A stretch of 64,000 nt of DNA from Azorhizobium caulinodans ORS 571. GTDB lineage: Bacteria > Pseudomonadota > Alphaproteobacteria > Rhizobiales > Xanthobacteraceae. The notes under the pieces were generated by a model that was not told the DNA's origin, did not search any database, and was given only the letters and a program-made list of their open reading frames with translations. The stretch is taken from the NCBI RefSeq assembly GCF_000010525.1, contig NC_009937.1, positions 4,345,501 through 4,409,500 of the forward strand, written 5' to 3'. Both the position numbers and the translations under genes were made by a program. Position 1 is the first letter of the stretch; every line of letters begins with the position of its first letter. This document shows, piece by piece, positions 9,121 through 51,442 of the stretch.

Positions 9121-10146
9121 TGTGGCTTCCGGAGAGGTTGTTCATCGCCCGTGAGAGCCTGAAGGTGGTTGTTGCGACACGACCGACCGCAGGACACGAG
9201 GATGAACAACCCGCACCAGAATGCGCGAACGACGCCGCTTGGTCGAGCCGAGATGGTTCGGCGGATCGTCGAGGAAGGCCGGCCAGTCGCCGAAGTGGCG
9301 GCCGGCTTCGGGATCAGCGAAAGGACGGCCCGCAAGTGGCTCGCCCGCTGGCGGGCCGAGGGGACGTCGGGCCTTCAGAACCGCTCGTCCCGCCCGCACG
9401 CCGCTGACGATGAGGCTGGCCGGTTCTGGCGGGCAATGGCAGCTCGCCTGCGTCGGGAGTATCGGTTGAGCGGCGAGGAGATCGCCGTCCGGCTGGGCTT
9501 TGCCCGCTCCACGGTGGCCGGATGGCTGACGCGGATGCGGCTCGGAAGCCTTGCCGCGCTGATGCCCCAGGAGCCGGTCCGACGCTATCAGCGCGAGCGG
9601 CCGGGCGAGCTGATCCATCTCGACATCAAGAAGCTCGCCCGCTTCGCGGGTGTCGGCCACCGCATCACCGGCAACCGGCGCGGGGCGAGTGAAGGCATGG
9701 GCTACGACTTCCTGCATGTGGCCATCGATGACGCCACCCGTCTTGCCTATGTGGAAGTGCTGCCGGATGAGCGGCGGGGATCGACGACAGGCTTCCTCAT
9801 TCGCGCCCTGCGCTGGTTCCGGGCGCGCGGCATCCGGGTCGAGCGGGTGATGACCGACAATGGGGCCGGCTACATCGCCAGGCTGTTCCGCAAGGTGCTG
9901 CGGATACTGGGCATCCGGCACATCCGCACCCGACCCTACACGCCGAAGACCAATGGCAAGGCCGAGCGTTTCATTCAGACCCTGCTGCGCGAATGGGCCT
10001 ATGCCATCCCGTTCCCGTCTTCTGAACGCCGCGCCGCCGACCTGCCCCGATGGCTCGCCTGGTACAATCACCAAAGGCCACATGGTAGCCTCGACCGCAG
10101 AACGCCAGCTCAGGCTCTCGCCGGAACAACCTGATCAGAAGTCACA
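9121..10146 (+). mobile_element. IS481-family element, copy 1, intact
   Basis: 1026 bp. The left end TGTGGCTTCCGG and the right end, whose complement reads TGTGACTTCTGA, form imperfect inverted repeats of about 23 bp, both followed by GGTTGTTC. The element is flanked by a perfect 6-bp direct repeat CCTAGA (9115-9120 and 10147-10152), which marks a clean transposition. A second copy of equal length lies at 50242-51267, differing at one base that I noticed. Confidence 0.93.
9202..10134 (+). CDS. IS481-family transposase (copy 1)
   Basis: 310 residues from MNNPHQNART; a TTG 11 codons upstream is an alternative start. A double helix-turn-helix (VAEVAAGFGISERTARKWLA and LSGEEIAVRLGFARSTVAGW) is followed by a DDE integrase core: HLDIKKLARF, AIDDATRLAYVEVL, VMTDNGAGYI, then the Glu region TPKTNGKAERFIQTLLREW. 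All three acidic residues are present, so the enzyme should be active. Its product is identical to that of copy 2. Confidence 0.95.
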   Translation: MNNPHQNARTTPLGRAEMVRRIVEEGRPVAEVAAGFGISERTARKWLARWRAEGTSGLQNRSSRPHAADDEAGRFWRAMAARLRREYRLSGEEIAVRLGFARSTVAGWLTRMRLGSLAALMPQEPVRRYQRERPGELIHLDIKKLARFAGVGHRITGNRRGASEGMGYDFLHVAIDDATRLAYVEVLPDERRGSTTGFLIRALRWFRARGIRVERVMTDNGAGYIARLFRKVLRILGIRHIRTRPYTPKTNGKAERFIQTLLREWAYAIPFPSSERRAADLPRWLAWYNHQRPHGSLDRRTPAQALAGTT

Positions 10147-46607: not shown

Positions 46608-48671
46608 TTACTCCGCCGCCACGGCAGGGGGGATGTCCGTGGCGTCCTCAGTATCCCCTGGGCTTTCGTCTTCGCCCATGGCCGTTGTGCCGTCCTGCAC
46701 CGCCGTTTCTTCGCCTGCCGCCGGTTCGGCTCCGCGCAGCGGTTCCGGCAGCCAGCCGGTGTCGGCCAGCAGCGTTTCGGCCTCGCGGGCCATGTCGCCC
46801 TTCTTCAGATGCGCGATGCGTTCCGCCGCACGTGCGCCCTTCGCCTCGCTCACCGCCTGCAGGATGCGGGCCTTGATGACCCGGCCGAGGAAATTGTCCA
46901 CGGTCGGCCTCCACCCGGCGGCAGCCATGTCGAGGTCGACGGCGCGCGCGAGTTGATCCGCATGGTGGAGGGCACGGGGCCGCCGGTTCCAGGCCTCATG
47001 AACAGCATTCACCGACAGGCTCAACACATGGGCGAATAGGCGGGAGCGGCTTTCGCTCTCCCAGTCCTGCAGCGCCTCCCAAAGGTCGGCCGAGTCCTTC
47101 GGCAGGACCTTCGCCCATCCCCCATGCCGGGCGTGGATTGCCGCAGCCGAGGCGCTGTCGTTCAGCCCCGGCGCCTGCGCGCTGAACGCCACGCTCTTCA
47201 GGTCGAGTTCGAGGCAGCTATCCGAGTCGTAGTGGTAGAAGCTCTTCAGCGTCAGGGCATGCAGGGCCGCGAGGAAGGCGACATCGGGCCGTTCGCCTAG
47301 CGCCTGGCGCAGGCCGAGCGTGCGATGCGAGGTCAGCTCGGTCATCAGCCGGTCCGAGAGCGCAGACAGCCCTTCGTCCTCCTCGGACTCGGGCGTCGGC
47401 GCGTCTGCCATGACGGCCTTGCCGGTACGCATAGCCGCCGCCACGATGTGGTGCGGGCCGGCGTCTTCCACCGCGACTTCGGGCTCCACCGGCAGTTCGT
47501 CCTCGGGCCGGACATAACCGCGCTCAATGCGCACCGCGCCGTCATGGGCGATGCTGACGAAGGCGCCGGCGCGCGCCATCTCCACCGGATCGAAAGTGAT
47601 CGGACGCGCCTCGAAAGCGTCGATTGCCGTCTCGATCTCGCCGAGCCGTGCGTCGACCTCCTCCGGCAACTCGTCCGCCTCAGCGTATTCAGTGGACAGG
47701 CGATGATATTCCGCCTGCAGGGCGTCGTGGCTGACTTCTTCCTCGGCGGTGAGCGTGATGGTCTCGCCGCGCAGCTGCCGCAGGCCGTAGGTGTGGCCAT
47801 AGGCGAAGTCGGGGGCCATCTCGACCCACTTCCACCCCTCCATGGCGACAGCGTCGGCCTCGGCCTTGAGCTTCTCGGCCACCAGCCGGTCGACCAGCGC
47901 GACATCCTGCAGCCAGCCGCCATCATCGCCCTGGAACAGGTCGCGCAGGATGATCCCGCCGGCCTCGACATAGGCCTGGAGGCCGATGAACTGGGCCCGC
48001 TTGTCGCAGGCGCGGACAGCCCCTTCGGTCAGCATGCGACGGATGGCATAGGGATGCTTGTCATAGGAGGTCTTCAGCCGCTCGAAGACCTGTTCCTGGC
48101 GCGCAGGGTCGCCGGAGACGGTGAAGGCCATGAGTTGGTCGAGCGTCAGGCCGTCCTCGGCATAGACCTCCAGCAGCACCGGCGAGACCGAGGCGAGCTT
48201 GAGGCGCTGCTTCACCACGTTGACCGAGACGAAGAAGGCGGCGGCGATCTCTTCTTCGGACTGGCCCTTCTCACGCAGGGCGAGGAAGGCGCGGAACTGG
48301 TCGAGCGGGTGCAGCGGCGCGCGCTGGACGTTCTCAGCGAGCGAATCCTCTTCGGCGATGCCGCCCTCTCGGATGACGCAGGGCACCGGCGCGGTCCTTG
48401 CGAGGCGCTTCTGCTTCACCAGCAGTTCCAGCGCCCGATAGCGCCGCCCGCCGGCCGGGATCTCGAACATGCCGGTCTCGACGCCGGCGCCATCGACGAC
48501 GGGGCGAACGCTGAGGCCCTGCAGCAGGCCGCGGCGGGCGATGTCCTCGGCCAGTTCCTCGATCGAGACGCCGGCCTTGACGCGCCGGACGTTCGACTGG
48601 CTGAGCAAGAGCTTGTTCAAGGGGATGTCACGCGAGGGCGAGAGCGTGATCTTCTGAACAGTGGTCGCCAT
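46608..48671 (-). CDS. ParB/RepB/Spo0J-type partition protein
   Basis: 687 residues, far longer than chromosomal ParB. The N-terminal ParB nuclease-fold domain has IPLNKLLLSQSNVRRVKAGV, IPAGGRRYRALELLVKQKRL and the SLAENVQRAPLHPLDQFRAF box; a helix-turn-helix follows (SEEEIAAAFFVSVNVVKQRL). The long C-terminal region is typical of the ParB-like proteins on ICEs and conjugative plasmids of Rhizobiales. It may act in regulation or stable maintenance. Start: ATG at 48671 with GGAGG upstream. A structured leader precedes it. Confidence 0.9.
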   Translation of the reverse strand: MATTVQKITLSPSRDIPLNKLLLSQSNVRRVKAGVSIEELAEDIARRGLLQGLSVRPVVDGAGVETGMFEIPAGGRRYRALELLVKQKRLARTAPVPCVIREGGIAEEDSLAENVQRAPLHPLDQFRAFLALREKGQSEEEIAAAFFVSVNVVKQRLKLASVSPVLLEVYAEDGLTLDQLMAFTVSGDPARQEQVFERLKTSYDKHPYAIRRMLTEGAVRACDKRAQFIGLQAYVEAGGIILRDLFQGDDGGWLQDVALVDRLVAEKLKAEADAVAMEGWKWVEMAPDFAYGHTYGLRQLRGETITLTAEEEVSHDALQAEYHRLSTEYAEADELPEEVDARLGEIETAIDAFEARPITFDPVEMARAGAFVSIAHDGAVRIERGYVRPEDELPVEPEVAVEDAGPHHIVAAAMRTGKAVMADAPTPESEEDEGLSALSDRLMTELTSHRTLGLRQALGERPDVAFLAALHALTLKSFYHYDSDSCLELDLKSVAFSAQAPGLNDSASAAAIHARHGGWAKVLPKDSADLWEALQDWESESRSRLFAHVLSLSVNAVHEAWNRRPRALHHADQLARAVDLDMAAAGWRPTVDNFLGRVIKARILQAVSEAKGARAAERIAHLKKGDMAREAETLLADTGWLPEPLRGAEPAAGEETAVQDGTTAMGEDESPGDTEDATDIPPAVAAE

Positions 48672-48675
48672 GGAA

Positions 48676-48755
48676 GGCACCTCCGTGACGGGCGGCCAAG
48701 AGCCTCTCTCTCGGCCTCCAACCCGTCACGAAGCGCAGCGCCGCCCTCTCACTCT
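48676..48755 (-). promoter_or_regulatory. Structured 5' leader of the parB-like gene
   Basis: On the RNA (minus strand) the outer stem CGUGACGGG/CCCGUCACG is 9 bp (48722-48730 with 48684-48692). The inner stem GGCCGAGAG/CUCUUGGCC encloses loop AGAGG (48708-48716 with 48694-48702). The 3' strand of the outer stem runs directly into the GGAGG ribosome site. A conserved box GAGAGGGCG lies upstream (48742-48752). The same architecture, with a compensatory change, precedes the DUF932 gene. Confidence 0.65.
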
Positions 48756-48853
48756 GGAGGGCGACGCCGCAGAACTGCAGATCCGCACAAACGGAAAGAC
48801 ACAAAGCCGGAGACACGAATTTCCGGATGTCCGCATCTCCGGCTTTCCGGAAG

Positions 48854-50047
48854 TCAGGCGGCCCGATCGAGCAGCTTCTTGGCCCGACCCTCGAGGTCGA
48901 GCCGCGCATCCTGGTGCGGCTTGTCGCGTGCGAACGCGGTGATGCCCTGCACGAAGTCGAAGATGCTCTCGGGCTTGCGCCCTTCCTCGGCCAGCACCGT
49001 GTCGATGATCCTGGCCGTCTCTACCCTGGAGAAGCCCCGGTTGCGCAGGAAGTCGCTGCGGTCCTCGTCGGTGCGCGCGACGATCTTCTCCCGTGCGGCC
49101 TTGATGCCGTTGACGAAGGGCATCGGCGAGGAATTGGCGAAGCGGGTGAGTGCCGGCGCTGCCTCGTGCGCGAAGCGGGAGGCGGCGTATTTGGAGTGGC
49201 GGATGGTGATCTCCTGGAAGTCCTCGACGCCCCAGAGATTGCGGTTCTGGCACACGGCACGCAGATAGAAACTCGCGATGCCGAGCGTCTTGGCCCCCAC
49301 CTCCGAGTTCCAGCAGTAGAAGCCCCGAAAATAGAGGTCCGGCGAGCCGTCGGGCAGCCGCCCGGCCTCGATCGGGTTGAGGTCGTCCACCAGGAAGAGG
49401 AAGACGTCGCGGTCGGAGGCGTAGAGCGTCGTCGTATCCTTGGTGATGTTGACACACGGATTATAGACGCCCGTCGACCAGTCGAGCACGCCCGGCACCT
49501 TCCAGCGCGTGTCGCCGGTGCCGTTGCCCGCAATGCGCTGCACGGCCTCGACCAGCTCATGATCATAGATCCGGCCATAGTCCGGGCCCGTCACCGCGCG
49601 CAGCTCGACGCGGCCATTGTCGGTTTCGAACGTCTTGATCTGCTCGGCGCGGTGCGCGGTCAGGCCATATTGCAGATTGATGCCGGCCAGCGCGGCGGGA
49701 AGCTGGCGCAGATAGGCGGCCGGCGCCCCGATCTGGGCCGCGAGCTGGCCGAACGACCAATGGTTCGGTTCGACGGGTGCATCCGCCCCGGGCAGCACCA
49801 GCGCCAGCCGCTCGGCATTGGAACGGCTCGCCTCCACATGGATGCGCGACGTCTCGACGAGGCGCGACCGGCTGTGATCAGCCCGGCCCAGCACCATCGC
49901 GGCCAGCTCGCCGAGCGACAGGAAGCGCTCGTCATCCGGCCGGGAGAACCACTCCGACGACACGCGGCCGACCCGCTCGCCGCGCGTGACATCCACCTTG
50001 TAGCCGCCGCTGGCATCACGACCGGCACCCAGAACCTTCATGTTCAT
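48854..50047 (-). CDS. DUF932-domain protein
   Basis: 397 residues. VTRGERVGRVSSEWFSRPDD, SQTNHWSFGQLAAQIGAPAA-like (NHWSFGQLAAQIGAPAAYLR), GPDYGRIYDHELVEAVQRIA and SDRDVFLFLVDDLNPIEAGR are typical of DUF932, a family of phage- and plasmid-associated proteins of unknown function. I start at the ATG at 50047 behind GGAGGG. It is transcribed towards the parB-like gene, and both carry the same RNA leader, suggesting shared regulation. Confidence 0.85.
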   Translation of the reverse strand: MNMKVLGAGRDASGGYKVDVTRGERVGRVSSEWFSRPDDERFLSLGELAAMVLGRADHSRSRLVETSRIHVEASRSNAERLALVLPGADAPVEPNHWSFGQLAAQIGAPAAYLRQLPAALAGINLQYGLTAHRAEQIKTFETDNGRVELRAVTGPDYGRIYDHELVEAVQRIAGNGTGDTRWKVPGVLDWSTGVYNPCVNITKDTTTLYASDRDVFLFLVDDLNPIEAGRLPDGSPDLYFRGFYCWNSEVGAKTLGIASFYLRAVCQNRNLWGVEDFQEITIRHSKYAASRFAHEAAPALTRFANSSPMPFVNGIKAAREKIVARTDEDRSDFLRNRGFSRVETARIIDTVLAEEGRKPESIFDFVQGITAFARDKPHQDARLDLEGRAKKLLDRAA

Positions 50048-50049
50048 GG

Positions 50050-50125
50050 GGATCACCCTCCATGACCGGCGCCGGAAGACTCTCTCCCGACCCTCAACCC
50101 GTCACGGAGATCCCATTCGCCCTCT
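50050..50125 (-). promoter_or_regulatory. Structured 5' leader of the DUF932 gene
   Basis: On the minus strand the outer stem CCGUGACGGG/CCGGUCAUGG (50098-50107 with 50060-50069) has one mismatch and one G-U pair. The inner stem GUCGGGAG/CUUCCGGC around loop AGAGU (50084-50091 with 50071-50078) has 8 pairs. The upstream box GUGAGAGGGCG is shared with the parB leader, and GGAGGG follows the stem directly. Confidence 0.62.
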
Positions 50126-50241
50126 CACTTTTAGCGGCGCGGTCAGGTACCAATAGATGCGCCATGTCGAGCGGAGCCTTCTCTTCCGGCGCTTGCTGAA
50201 CGGTCGGTGGATGACGTCATTGATAGGCAGAACGGCCTAGC

Positions 50242-51267
50242 TGTGGCTTCCGGAGAGGTTGTTCATCGCCCGTGAGAGCCTGAAGGTGGTTGTTGCGACA
50301 CGACCGACCGCAGGACACGAGGATGAACAACCCGCACCAGAATGCGCGAACGACGCCGCTTGGTCGAGCCGAGATGGTTCGGCGGATCGTCGAGGAAGGC
50401 CGGCCAGTCGCCGAAGTGGCGGCCGGCTTCGGGATCAGCGAAAGGACGGCCCGCAAGTGGCTCGCCCGCTGGCGGGCCGAGGGGACGTCGGGCCTTCAGA
50501 ACCGCTCGTCCCGCCCGCACGCCGCTGACGATGAGGCTGGCCGGTTCTGGCGGGCAATGGCAGCTCGCCTGCGTCGGGAGTATCGGTTGAGCGGCGAGGA
50601 GATCGCCGTCCGGCTGGGCTTTGCCCGCTCCACGGTGGCCGGATGGCTGACGCGGATGCGGCTCGGAAGCCTTGCCGCGCTGATGCCCCAGGAGCCGGTC
50701 CGACGCTATCAGCGCGAGCGGCCGGGCGAGCTGATCCATCTCGACATCAAGAAGCTCGCCCGCTTCGCGGGTGTCGGCCACCGCATCACCGGCAACCGGC
50801 GCGGGGCGAGTGAAGGCATGGGCTACGACTTCCTGCATGTGGCCATCGATGACGCCACCCGTCTTGCCTATGTGGAAGTGCTACCGGATGAGCGGCGGGG
50901 ATCGACGACAGGCTTCCTCATTCGCGCCCTGCGCTGGTTCCGGGCGCGCGGCATCCGGGTCGAGCGGGTGATGACCGACAATGGGGCCGGCTACATCGCC
51001 AGGCTGTTCCGCAAGGTGCTGCGGATACTGGGCATCCGGCACATCCGCACCCGACCCTACACGCCGAAGACCAATGGCAAGGCCGAGCGTTTCATTCAGA
51101 CCCTGCTGCGCGAATGGGCCTATGCCATCCCGTTCCCGTCTTCTGAACGCCGCGCCGCCGACCTGCCCCGATGGCTCGCCTGGTACAATCACCAAAGGCC
51201 ACATGGTAGCCTCGACCGCAGAACGCCAGCTCAGGCTCTCGCCGGAACAACCTGATCAGAAGTCACA
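50242..51267 (+). mobile_element. IS481-family element, copy 2, intact
   Basis: 1026 bp, the same as copy 1 at 9121-10146 except for one synonymous G-to-A change that I noticed (50883). A 6-bp target repeat CCTAGC is at 50236-50241 and 51268-51273. Both copies therefore inserted at CCTAG-type sites. Same orientation as copy 1, about 41 kb away. Confidence 0.93.
50323..51255 (+). CDS. IS481-family transposase (copy 2)
   Basis: 310 residues, identical in sequence to the transposase of copy 1, with complete helix-turn-helix and DDE core. Near-identity at the DNA level means recent transposition or ongoing sequence homogenisation. Confidence 0.95.
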   Translation: MNNPHQNARTTPLGRAEMVRRIVEEGRPVAEVAAGFGISERTARKWLARWRAEGTSGLQNRSSRPHAADDEAGRFWRAMAARLRREYRLSGEEIAVRLGFARSTVAGWLTRMRLGSLAALMPQEPVRRYQRERPGELIHLDIKKLARFAGVGHRITGNRRGASEGMGYDFLHVAIDDATRLAYVEVLPDERRGSTTGFLIRALRWFRARGIRVERVMTDNGAGYIARLFRKVLRILGIRHIRTRPYTPKTNGKAERFIQTLLREWAYAIPFPSSERRAADLPRWLAWYNHQRPHGSLDRRTPAQALAGTT

Positions 51268-51442
51268 CCTAGCTGACCGCCTGAGCTCGGATGGGTCGCA
51301 GATCCTGACGAATTGATGCCTGGGAGCGCCCGGCATTCTGGGACTGTAGGGCAGCTGACGCAGAGACCACTTTCCAGCGCTTTGAACCGCCCCTAGATTC
51401 CTGGAAGCCTTCTTCCGTAAATTTTCAGGCAAGGAGGCCCCG

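Follow-up and report, generated by a model that had tools for sequence, protein, structure and literature searches.

The locus raises the question of whether two neighbouring genes on the minus strand of Azorhizobium caulinodans ORS 571, one parB-like and one of DUF932 type, are headed by a common RNA structure and, if so, what that structure does. Both lie in the window, by which we mean the whole 64-kb stretch of DNA that was analysed. The parB-like gene (46608-48671, ATG at 48671-48669) is identified by Pfam ParB_N and by its homologues; the DUF932-type gene (48854-50047, ATG at 50047-50045) is named from the annotation of its homologues, and its protein gave no Pfam match at E <= 0.001. 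The full leaders, counted into the start codon, occupy 48755-48671 (parB-like) and 50131-50047 (DUF932) on the minus strand. Each is composed, in order, of an AGAG box, a spacer, the 5' arm CGTGACGGG of an outer stem P1, a short stretch, an inner stem P2 with a pentaloop, the 3' arm of P1, GGAGG and ATG.

In the parB-like leader, conservation among 115 leaders places the upstream box AGAGTGAGAG, which holds the motif AGAGNNAGAG, at 48746-48755. Folding and sequence place the 5' arm of P1 at 48722-48730 and its 3' arm CCCGTCACG at 48684-48692, and folding and conservation place the pentaloop AGAGG, closed by P2, at 48703-48707. The last G of the 3' arm is the first G of the Shine-Dalgarno (SD) sequence GGAGG at 48680-48684, which by folding and opening energy is partly paired in the base of P1. 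In the DUF932 leader, the pentaloop AGAGT folds at 50079-50083 and the SD GGAGG at 50057-50061 is paired in P1, again by folding and opening energy. The 5' arms of P1 are identical in the two leaders, P1 of the DUF932 leader has one unpaired position, and GGAGG is separated from ATG by 8 bases (parB) and 9 bases (DUF932).

An earlier reading of the sequence alone (the sequence-only reading) had proposed that both leaders form the same two-part hairpin, and folding against shuffled sequences bears this out on the minus strand. The 88-base leaders, in the listed order parB-like and DUF932-type, fold at -50.8 kcal/mol (z -5.1, 0 of 200 shuffles as good) and -38.5 kcal/mol (z -2.8, 2 of 200), and the hairpins alone give z values of -5.4 and -3.4 (0 of 200 shuffles each). 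The covariance model R1, which was built from relatives plus the window's own two leaders, matches the parB-like leader from the box to just past the SD at 48678-48754 (-) with 87.2 bits and E 4.6e-20, and the DUF932 leader at 50055-50130 (-) with 77.1 bits and E 1.5e-17, filters off; the next-best site in the window has E 0.046 under the same setting. The corresponding scores of a broader model, R2, are 86.3 and 77.9 bits. When the 5.37 Mb genome was searched with R1 at E <= 1, the window's two sites alone were reported among the first-pass candidates, and CGTGACGGGTT occurs without mismatch only at the two leader sites within the 64-kb window. It is confirmed that both genes share one folded RNA leader. 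That the leaders run into a GGAGG ribosome site, as had been described, is likewise correct, the start codon following after it. The upstream box had been misjudged: with at most one mismatch allowed, the window holds 42 copies of GAGAGGGCG where 34.3 would be expected, and the conserved box is AGAGNNAGAG.

Homologous leaders had been expected before other genes of mobile elements, and the covariance-model search returned many of them. We examined the downstream gene of 135 matches, a set that is diverse rather than random and includes a few weak matches: 61 precede ParB-like genes, 29 ArdC, 18 DUF932-type genes and 9 a gene of 172-201 aa, with 4 before a 120-131-aa protein, 1 before an AlpA-like regulator, 1 before another gene and 12 unassigned (123 assigned). 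ArdC was identified by Pfam ArdcN plus MPTase-PolyVal in one representative. The 172-201-aa gene is annotated as RadC in one plasmid and is here called RadC-adjacent; the two pieces of it that were searched gave no Pfam match. Of 135 leaders examined, 130 could be given a start codon, and in 122 of these it lies 4-6 nt beyond the model end. One leader, in Paracoccus saliphilus, was found by DNA likeness alone and precedes an annotated zincin-like metallopeptidase resembling these ArdC genes.

The association with the ParB-like gene depends on relatedness. In the class sample, among homologues whose N-terminus is present, the leader stands before 26 of 30 with at least 45% identity (G189, where it lies 61 bases away, is included) and before 1 of 10 with less than 45%. 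In ten regions before leaderless ParB relatives there was no model match better than E 0.15, filters off, and of the 8 whose upstream sequence is long enough, 7 show an ordinary SD by eye. Two leaderless relatives, L285 and L286, have a different GC-rich hairpin right before the SD. Six plasmids (L091, L251-L255) were picked for their distance, their DUF932-type proteins having 71-77% identity; the DUF932 leader is present in two of the six (L253, L255) and every annotated parB (4/4: L091, L252, L253, L255) has its leader. L251 gave no model match below E 0.02, and the one match in L254 falls in an unannotated stretch. Most of these distant DUF932 and ParB relatives lack it, so the leader belongs to one lineage of the module and the genes do not depend on it.

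Within that lineage the leader is widespread. A protein search of species genomes yielded at least 572 relatives of the DUF932-type protein; among the best 80 of these, an R1 match lies directly before the gene in 80 of 80, R1 having been trained on 51 leaders, most of them from those same DUF932 loci. The record titles of the 80 name Rhizobiales, Sphingomonadales, Rhodobacterales, Acetobacteraceae and others, including one MAG labelled Thauera. Over 84 sources, R1 gave 176 matches, 170 with E < 2e-5 and 6 weak. Its matches occur in 52 of 149 genomes of the family sample (up to 12 per genome), in 27 of 385 of the class sample and in 33 of 398 of the phylum sample, a sample of unstated class make-up in which all 33 are from Alphaproteobacteria. 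R2 found 29 of 385 genomes in the class sample, two of them weak and doubtful. In a viral-contig collection a DNA pattern picked out 8 contigs, of which 3 carry strong model matches. The R2 match L306 was rejected as a member, being weak and without the hairpin-SD-start layout. A second weak R2 match, L307:1501-1580 (E 0.004), from a small genome of the same class, has a hairpin, a pentaloop AATGG, GGAG and ATG; it was left out of the members, is possibly a distant relative and may deserve a second look.

For the structure tests, 115 leaders below 90% identity were aligned over 86 columns, L229:774, L229:1755, L227:4581, L240:2440 and L230:4889 (the last truncated by the end of its contig) having been left out beforehand. 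Paired cells make up 93.5%, compared with 85.1% in shuffles and 36-50% when the structure is slid, and both-sided changes are seen in 16 of the 17 pairs, with both helices contributing. A tree from the same 86 columns, used also for the single-pair and strand tests, gave 39 compensatory double events, where 300 simulations averaged 6.3 and never exceeded 16; pair-breaking changes stood at 31.5% against 64.4% expected. Homologous leaders thus keep their pairs through many compensatory changes, and the earlier suggestion of selection on RNA structure is upheld. The covariation statistics divide: the event counts are positive, but a strict home-made phylogenetic null for single column pairs gave none at E < 0.3. 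The top six of the 2648 column pairs in that strict test are all structure pairs. We think that the E-values above 0.3 arise from substitutions re-dealt over columns on the 86-column tree, with a heavy tail; as they stand, they count against calling single pairs significant.

The wobble pairs indicate which strand folds. In the 115 leaders, G.U occupies 253 cells and A.C 45; among one-sided changes in pairs, 102 lead to G.U and 25 to A.C, whereas the same change types in unpaired columns number 144 and 231 (odds ratio 6.5). This bias implies that the coding strand folds, as mRNA or as coding-strand single-stranded DNA, which argues for mRNA and against a template-strand hairpin or a double-stranded palindrome. 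Covariation therefore shows a structure conserved on the mRNA strand, as expected of a cis-regulatory leader. A pairing of the box with the 3' arm of P2 was considered and dropped, because by eye the arm varies while the box does not.

The SD is part of this structure. It had been described as next to the stem; the adjacency holds, but the first two G's of the SD belong to the stem itself. The first two bases of GGAG are paired in 104 and 108 of the 115 leaders, and the A and last G in 79 and 89, so that full occlusion is not universal. Opening the SD costs on average 6.27 kcal/mol, against 2.93 kcal/mol with the upstream part shuffled; the cost exceeds the leader's own shuffled control in 102 of 113 scorable leaders and is 4.95 and 4.97 kcal/mol for the window's two. 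The SD is thus held within the structure, with the start codon at a fixed distance, without the whole SD being paired in every leader. While the stems vary, the box retains AGAGNNAGAG and the pentaloop retains AGAG, neither having a pairing partner. The base following AGAG differs from G in 38 of 115 leaders in the box (column 11) and in 28 of 115, plus one gap, in the loop (column 58), so the conserved unit is AGAG rather than GAGG. If a factor read the stem, the P1 sequences of one element might be expected to change in concert; by eye, in L037, the two P1 stems differ.

The explanation that we hold to be fairly probable is that of a cis-acting mRNA leader, conserved in alphaproteobacterial conjugative plasmids and integrative elements, that lowers translation until a trans factor reads AGAG, giving establishment and anti-defence genes one switch. 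The P1+P2 hairpin would bury the GGAG of the SD at the bottom of P1, only a short way ahead of the start codon, and we propose that translation is low by default because of this burial. The box contributes two single-stranded AGAG motifs and the pentaloop a third; a putative trans factor, either a protein or a CUCU-bearing RNA, would read them and change access to the SD. Since the same leader stands before ParB-like, DUF932, ArdC and RadC-adjacent genes, and in looser form before strawberry-notch genes, we suppose that establishment and anti-defence genes are placed under one post-transcriptional switch, their proteins probably being produced once the element has entered a new cell and later held at a low level. 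A hidden SD, conserved unpaired motifs and genes with little in common beyond their module make up the arrangement of a shared translational switch. The timing is suggested by passages of two sources, according to which anti-defence genes are among the first to enter in other plasmids (PMC11541004) and ArdC is believed to shield single-stranded DNA as it comes in (PMC5512222). Control of translation had been suggested from the sequence; the burial of the SD supports it. Structure, covariation, folding strand, SD burial and the use of one leader by unrelated genes are results of computation, whereas the regulation of translation, its factor and its timing are what we infer. A stronger form, in which one element-encoded factor binds the triple AGAG and switches translation of scattered establishment and anti-restriction genes in concert when the element enters a new cell, as an RNA-level counterpart of leading-region single-stranded DNA promoters throughout the alphaproteobacteria, is put forward tentatively and may well not hold.

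Several other explanations have to be weighed against this leader switch. It is extremely improbable that the likeness of the two copies reflects a double-stranded DNA operator palindrome or a recent duplication with no RNA function, even though the 5' arms of P1 are identical in the window and leaders of different genes resemble each other slightly more within one locus than between loci (0.580 vs 0.551; in a smaller set, 0.571 vs 0.522). The covariation with its coding-strand G.U bias opposes it, as does the comparison of 257 leaders whose gene is known: 213 of them share their locus with the leader of a different gene, and for 210 of these 213 a leader of the same gene elsewhere is closer than the neighbour. 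Mean similarity over the 257 is 0.580 for co-resident leaders of different genes and 0.640 for the same gene at different loci, while in a smaller nearest-leader comparison between loci both means are 0.571. The window's parB leader reaches 0.97 with the parB leaders of L009, L012, L013 and L015, compared with 0.57 with its DUF932 neighbour, and the two window leaders rank each other 177th and 124th of 256. Because same-gene leaders elsewhere are closer, the likeness of the two copies is old and has been maintained. A recent duplication of the 5' region, which the sequence-only reading had named as its own refutation, thus fails to refute it; both duplication and operator are disfavoured by the nearest-leader test and the strand bias. 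Action as single-stranded DNA during transfer, as a Frpo/ssi-like promoter or a priming site, would be in keeping with the relaxase and coupling-protein genes 11-17 kb from the window leaders and with leader genes of the anti-defence type that parts of PMC11541004 describe for leading regions. The Frpo/ssi promoters, as treated there, are also hairpins before early anti-defence genes of conjugative elements, but the present leader folds on the coding strand, has no sigma-70-like boxes and is fixed in position to the SD and ATG. Selection for folding acts on the coding strand, whereas leading-region genes are, on one reading of the relevant part of PMC11541004, transcribed from the transferred strand; if that applied to this element, it would speak against the role. 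A scan of both strands of 48650-50350, limited to sigma-70-like promoters, found none, and with that no -35/-10 pair of this type in a hairpin stem there. We consider this role very unlikely.

The two remaining alternatives concern the RNA itself. The leader could be a constitutive 5' stabiliser or ribosome standby site, whose hairpin protects the mRNA and whose AGAGG loop and box draw in the 30S subunit through their likeness to an SD, without any switch. The hairpin does stand just before the start codon of each gene, and loop and box resemble an SD, with AGAGG as pentaloop in 68 of 115 leaders and a G after the last GAG of the box in 77 of 115. A pure enhancer, however, would have no need of an SD buried beyond its controls, and it is AGAG rather than GAGG that is kept, the following base often not being G; this role is rather unlikely. 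The leader might instead be a target or a source of small RNA, a CUCU-rich antisense pairing with AGAG or the leader itself being cleaved off. The unpaired AGAG kept beside variable stems would agree with this, as would the strawberry-notch leaders, in which GAGAG faces a conserved CUCUC, but Rfam scans gave no candidate at the leaders, and we regard such a role as quite improbable.

No Rfam 15 family matches the leaders, as had been anticipated. A scan of the window at the gathering threshold gave only a tRNA at 561-632, and at E <= 5 the region 48600-50200 gave six matches, all below gathering, those touching the leaders having E 0.94-2.8. At 18 leader loci, E <= 0.5, there was one match, to P10 inside a DUF932-type gene; at 9 further loci, the gathering threshold left a tRNA and an RT-13 RNA, neither at the leaders. 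P10, a Pseudomonas sRNA family, is also the best of the six sub-threshold matches in 48600-50200, where it lies within the window's DUF932-type coding sequence (49347-49421 (-), 26.7 of 37 bits, E 0.00048); the P10 match among the 18 loci, L101:2212-2286 (22 bits), is at a similar place, and the family possibly derives from a DUF932-like gene. The earlier impression that no RNA of this form had been described agrees with the literature searched, in which we found none; many journals lie outside its coverage, so that this silence is no proof of absence.

Nearest in kind is the radC RNA motif, which is located upstream of radC and of further DNA-related genes carried by mobile elements. It is likewise a structured Proteobacteria RNA before mobile-element genes, but it has 149 model positions versus 76 in the leader. 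The motif (Rfam RF01754) is tabulated in a part of Weinberg et al. 2010 (PMC2864571). A search with RF01754 put 0 of 58 genomes over the cut-off; three of these (G000, G004 and G051) are known to bear the leader and have their weak RF01754 matches elsewhere. One weak match in the window's genome is away from the leaders, and RF01754 is absent from the Rfam-scan matches at leader loci. SD-sequestering cis-regulatory hairpins include ROSE-type thermometers and ribosomal-protein leaders. They resemble the present leader in being hairpins just before a gene with the SD in the 3' arm; the leader differs in its conserved box and pentaloop, its use by several unrelated mobile-element genes and its lack of an Rfam match. 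Polyvalent-protein conflict genes, in the portions of PMC5512222 that concern ArdC and ParB-like domains, are related to the leader genes (ArdC-N with MPTase), but those portions deal with proteins and "hairpin" there denotes protein folds. The leader probably controls translation, and unrelated genes of conjugative elements share it. The sequence-only interpretation is thereby supported, its observation having been right and understated. If the switch proposed here is true, the ParB-like/DUF932/ArdC module of rhizobial, sphingomonad and rhodobacterial elements would have a common RNA switch, and the leader would mark such genes in unannotated elements. To our knowledge, the timing of anti-restriction and establishment proteins in conjugative elements has been studied mainly in enterobacterial plasmids and at the promoter level.

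The surrounding genes are those of such an element. Among annotated ORFs, some of those between giving no family or lying outside the search, the minus-strand order is DUF932-type, ParB-like, toprim (DUF7146), YspA-like, a VapBC-like pair (PIN plus FitA-like antitoxin), DUF736, HTH_17, RPA replication initiator, ParA-like, transglycosylase, relaxase (DUF3363) and coupling protein TraG. An IS481-type insertion sequence with imperfect terminal inverted repeats occupies 50236-51281 (transposase 50290-51255); about 105 bases separate it from the box of the DUF932 leader, which lies downstream. Since the genome holds a second, identical copy at another place, the insertion is probably recent, and it may have changed the promoter region upstream of that leader. 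Inspection by eye showed an inverted repeat resembling a terminator, AAAGCCGGAGA..TCTCCGGCTTT at 48795-48850 (-), in the gap that separates the DUF932 gene from parB, and several relatives have a similar one, so that parB may be transcribed from a promoter of its own. This repeat is absent from the results of the terminator scan, and no sigma-70-like site was found.

The annotated gene adjoining parB in the window is the toprim gene rather than a strawberry-notch helicase. In many rhizobial loci, a looser leader stands before strawberry-notch-like helicase genes; it shares the box, contains a GAGAGAGAGCG segment and has CGCTCTC immediately ahead of the SD (L126:8132-8204, L234:1739-1840, L240:2446-2541 and 23 more); the sphingomonad loci inspected are without it. 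In an alignment of 25 distinct strawberry-notch leaders, RNAalifold supported ten pairs, one with a both-sided change. This looser leader suggests that the regulon is defined by the AGAG motifs rather than by a single hairpin.

In many elements, a block made up of three hairpins (GGGGAAAGCCTTCCCC; CGGCCGAG..CTCGGCCG or GTCGGCA..TGCCGAC; TGCGGGGAGACCCCGCAACGCCCC) immediately precedes the box where the leader belongs to a DUF932 or an ArdC gene. The block end CCCCGCAACGCC is absent from the window, also when one mismatch is allowed; of its 103 copies at the scanned loci, of which some overlap, 73 are followed by the box. The block is seen at L028 (about 9800-9912) and many Rhizobiales loci, and at L018 (about 9570-9660), and in sphingomonads it lies about 260 bases further upstream. 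By eye, its second hairpin seems to covary.
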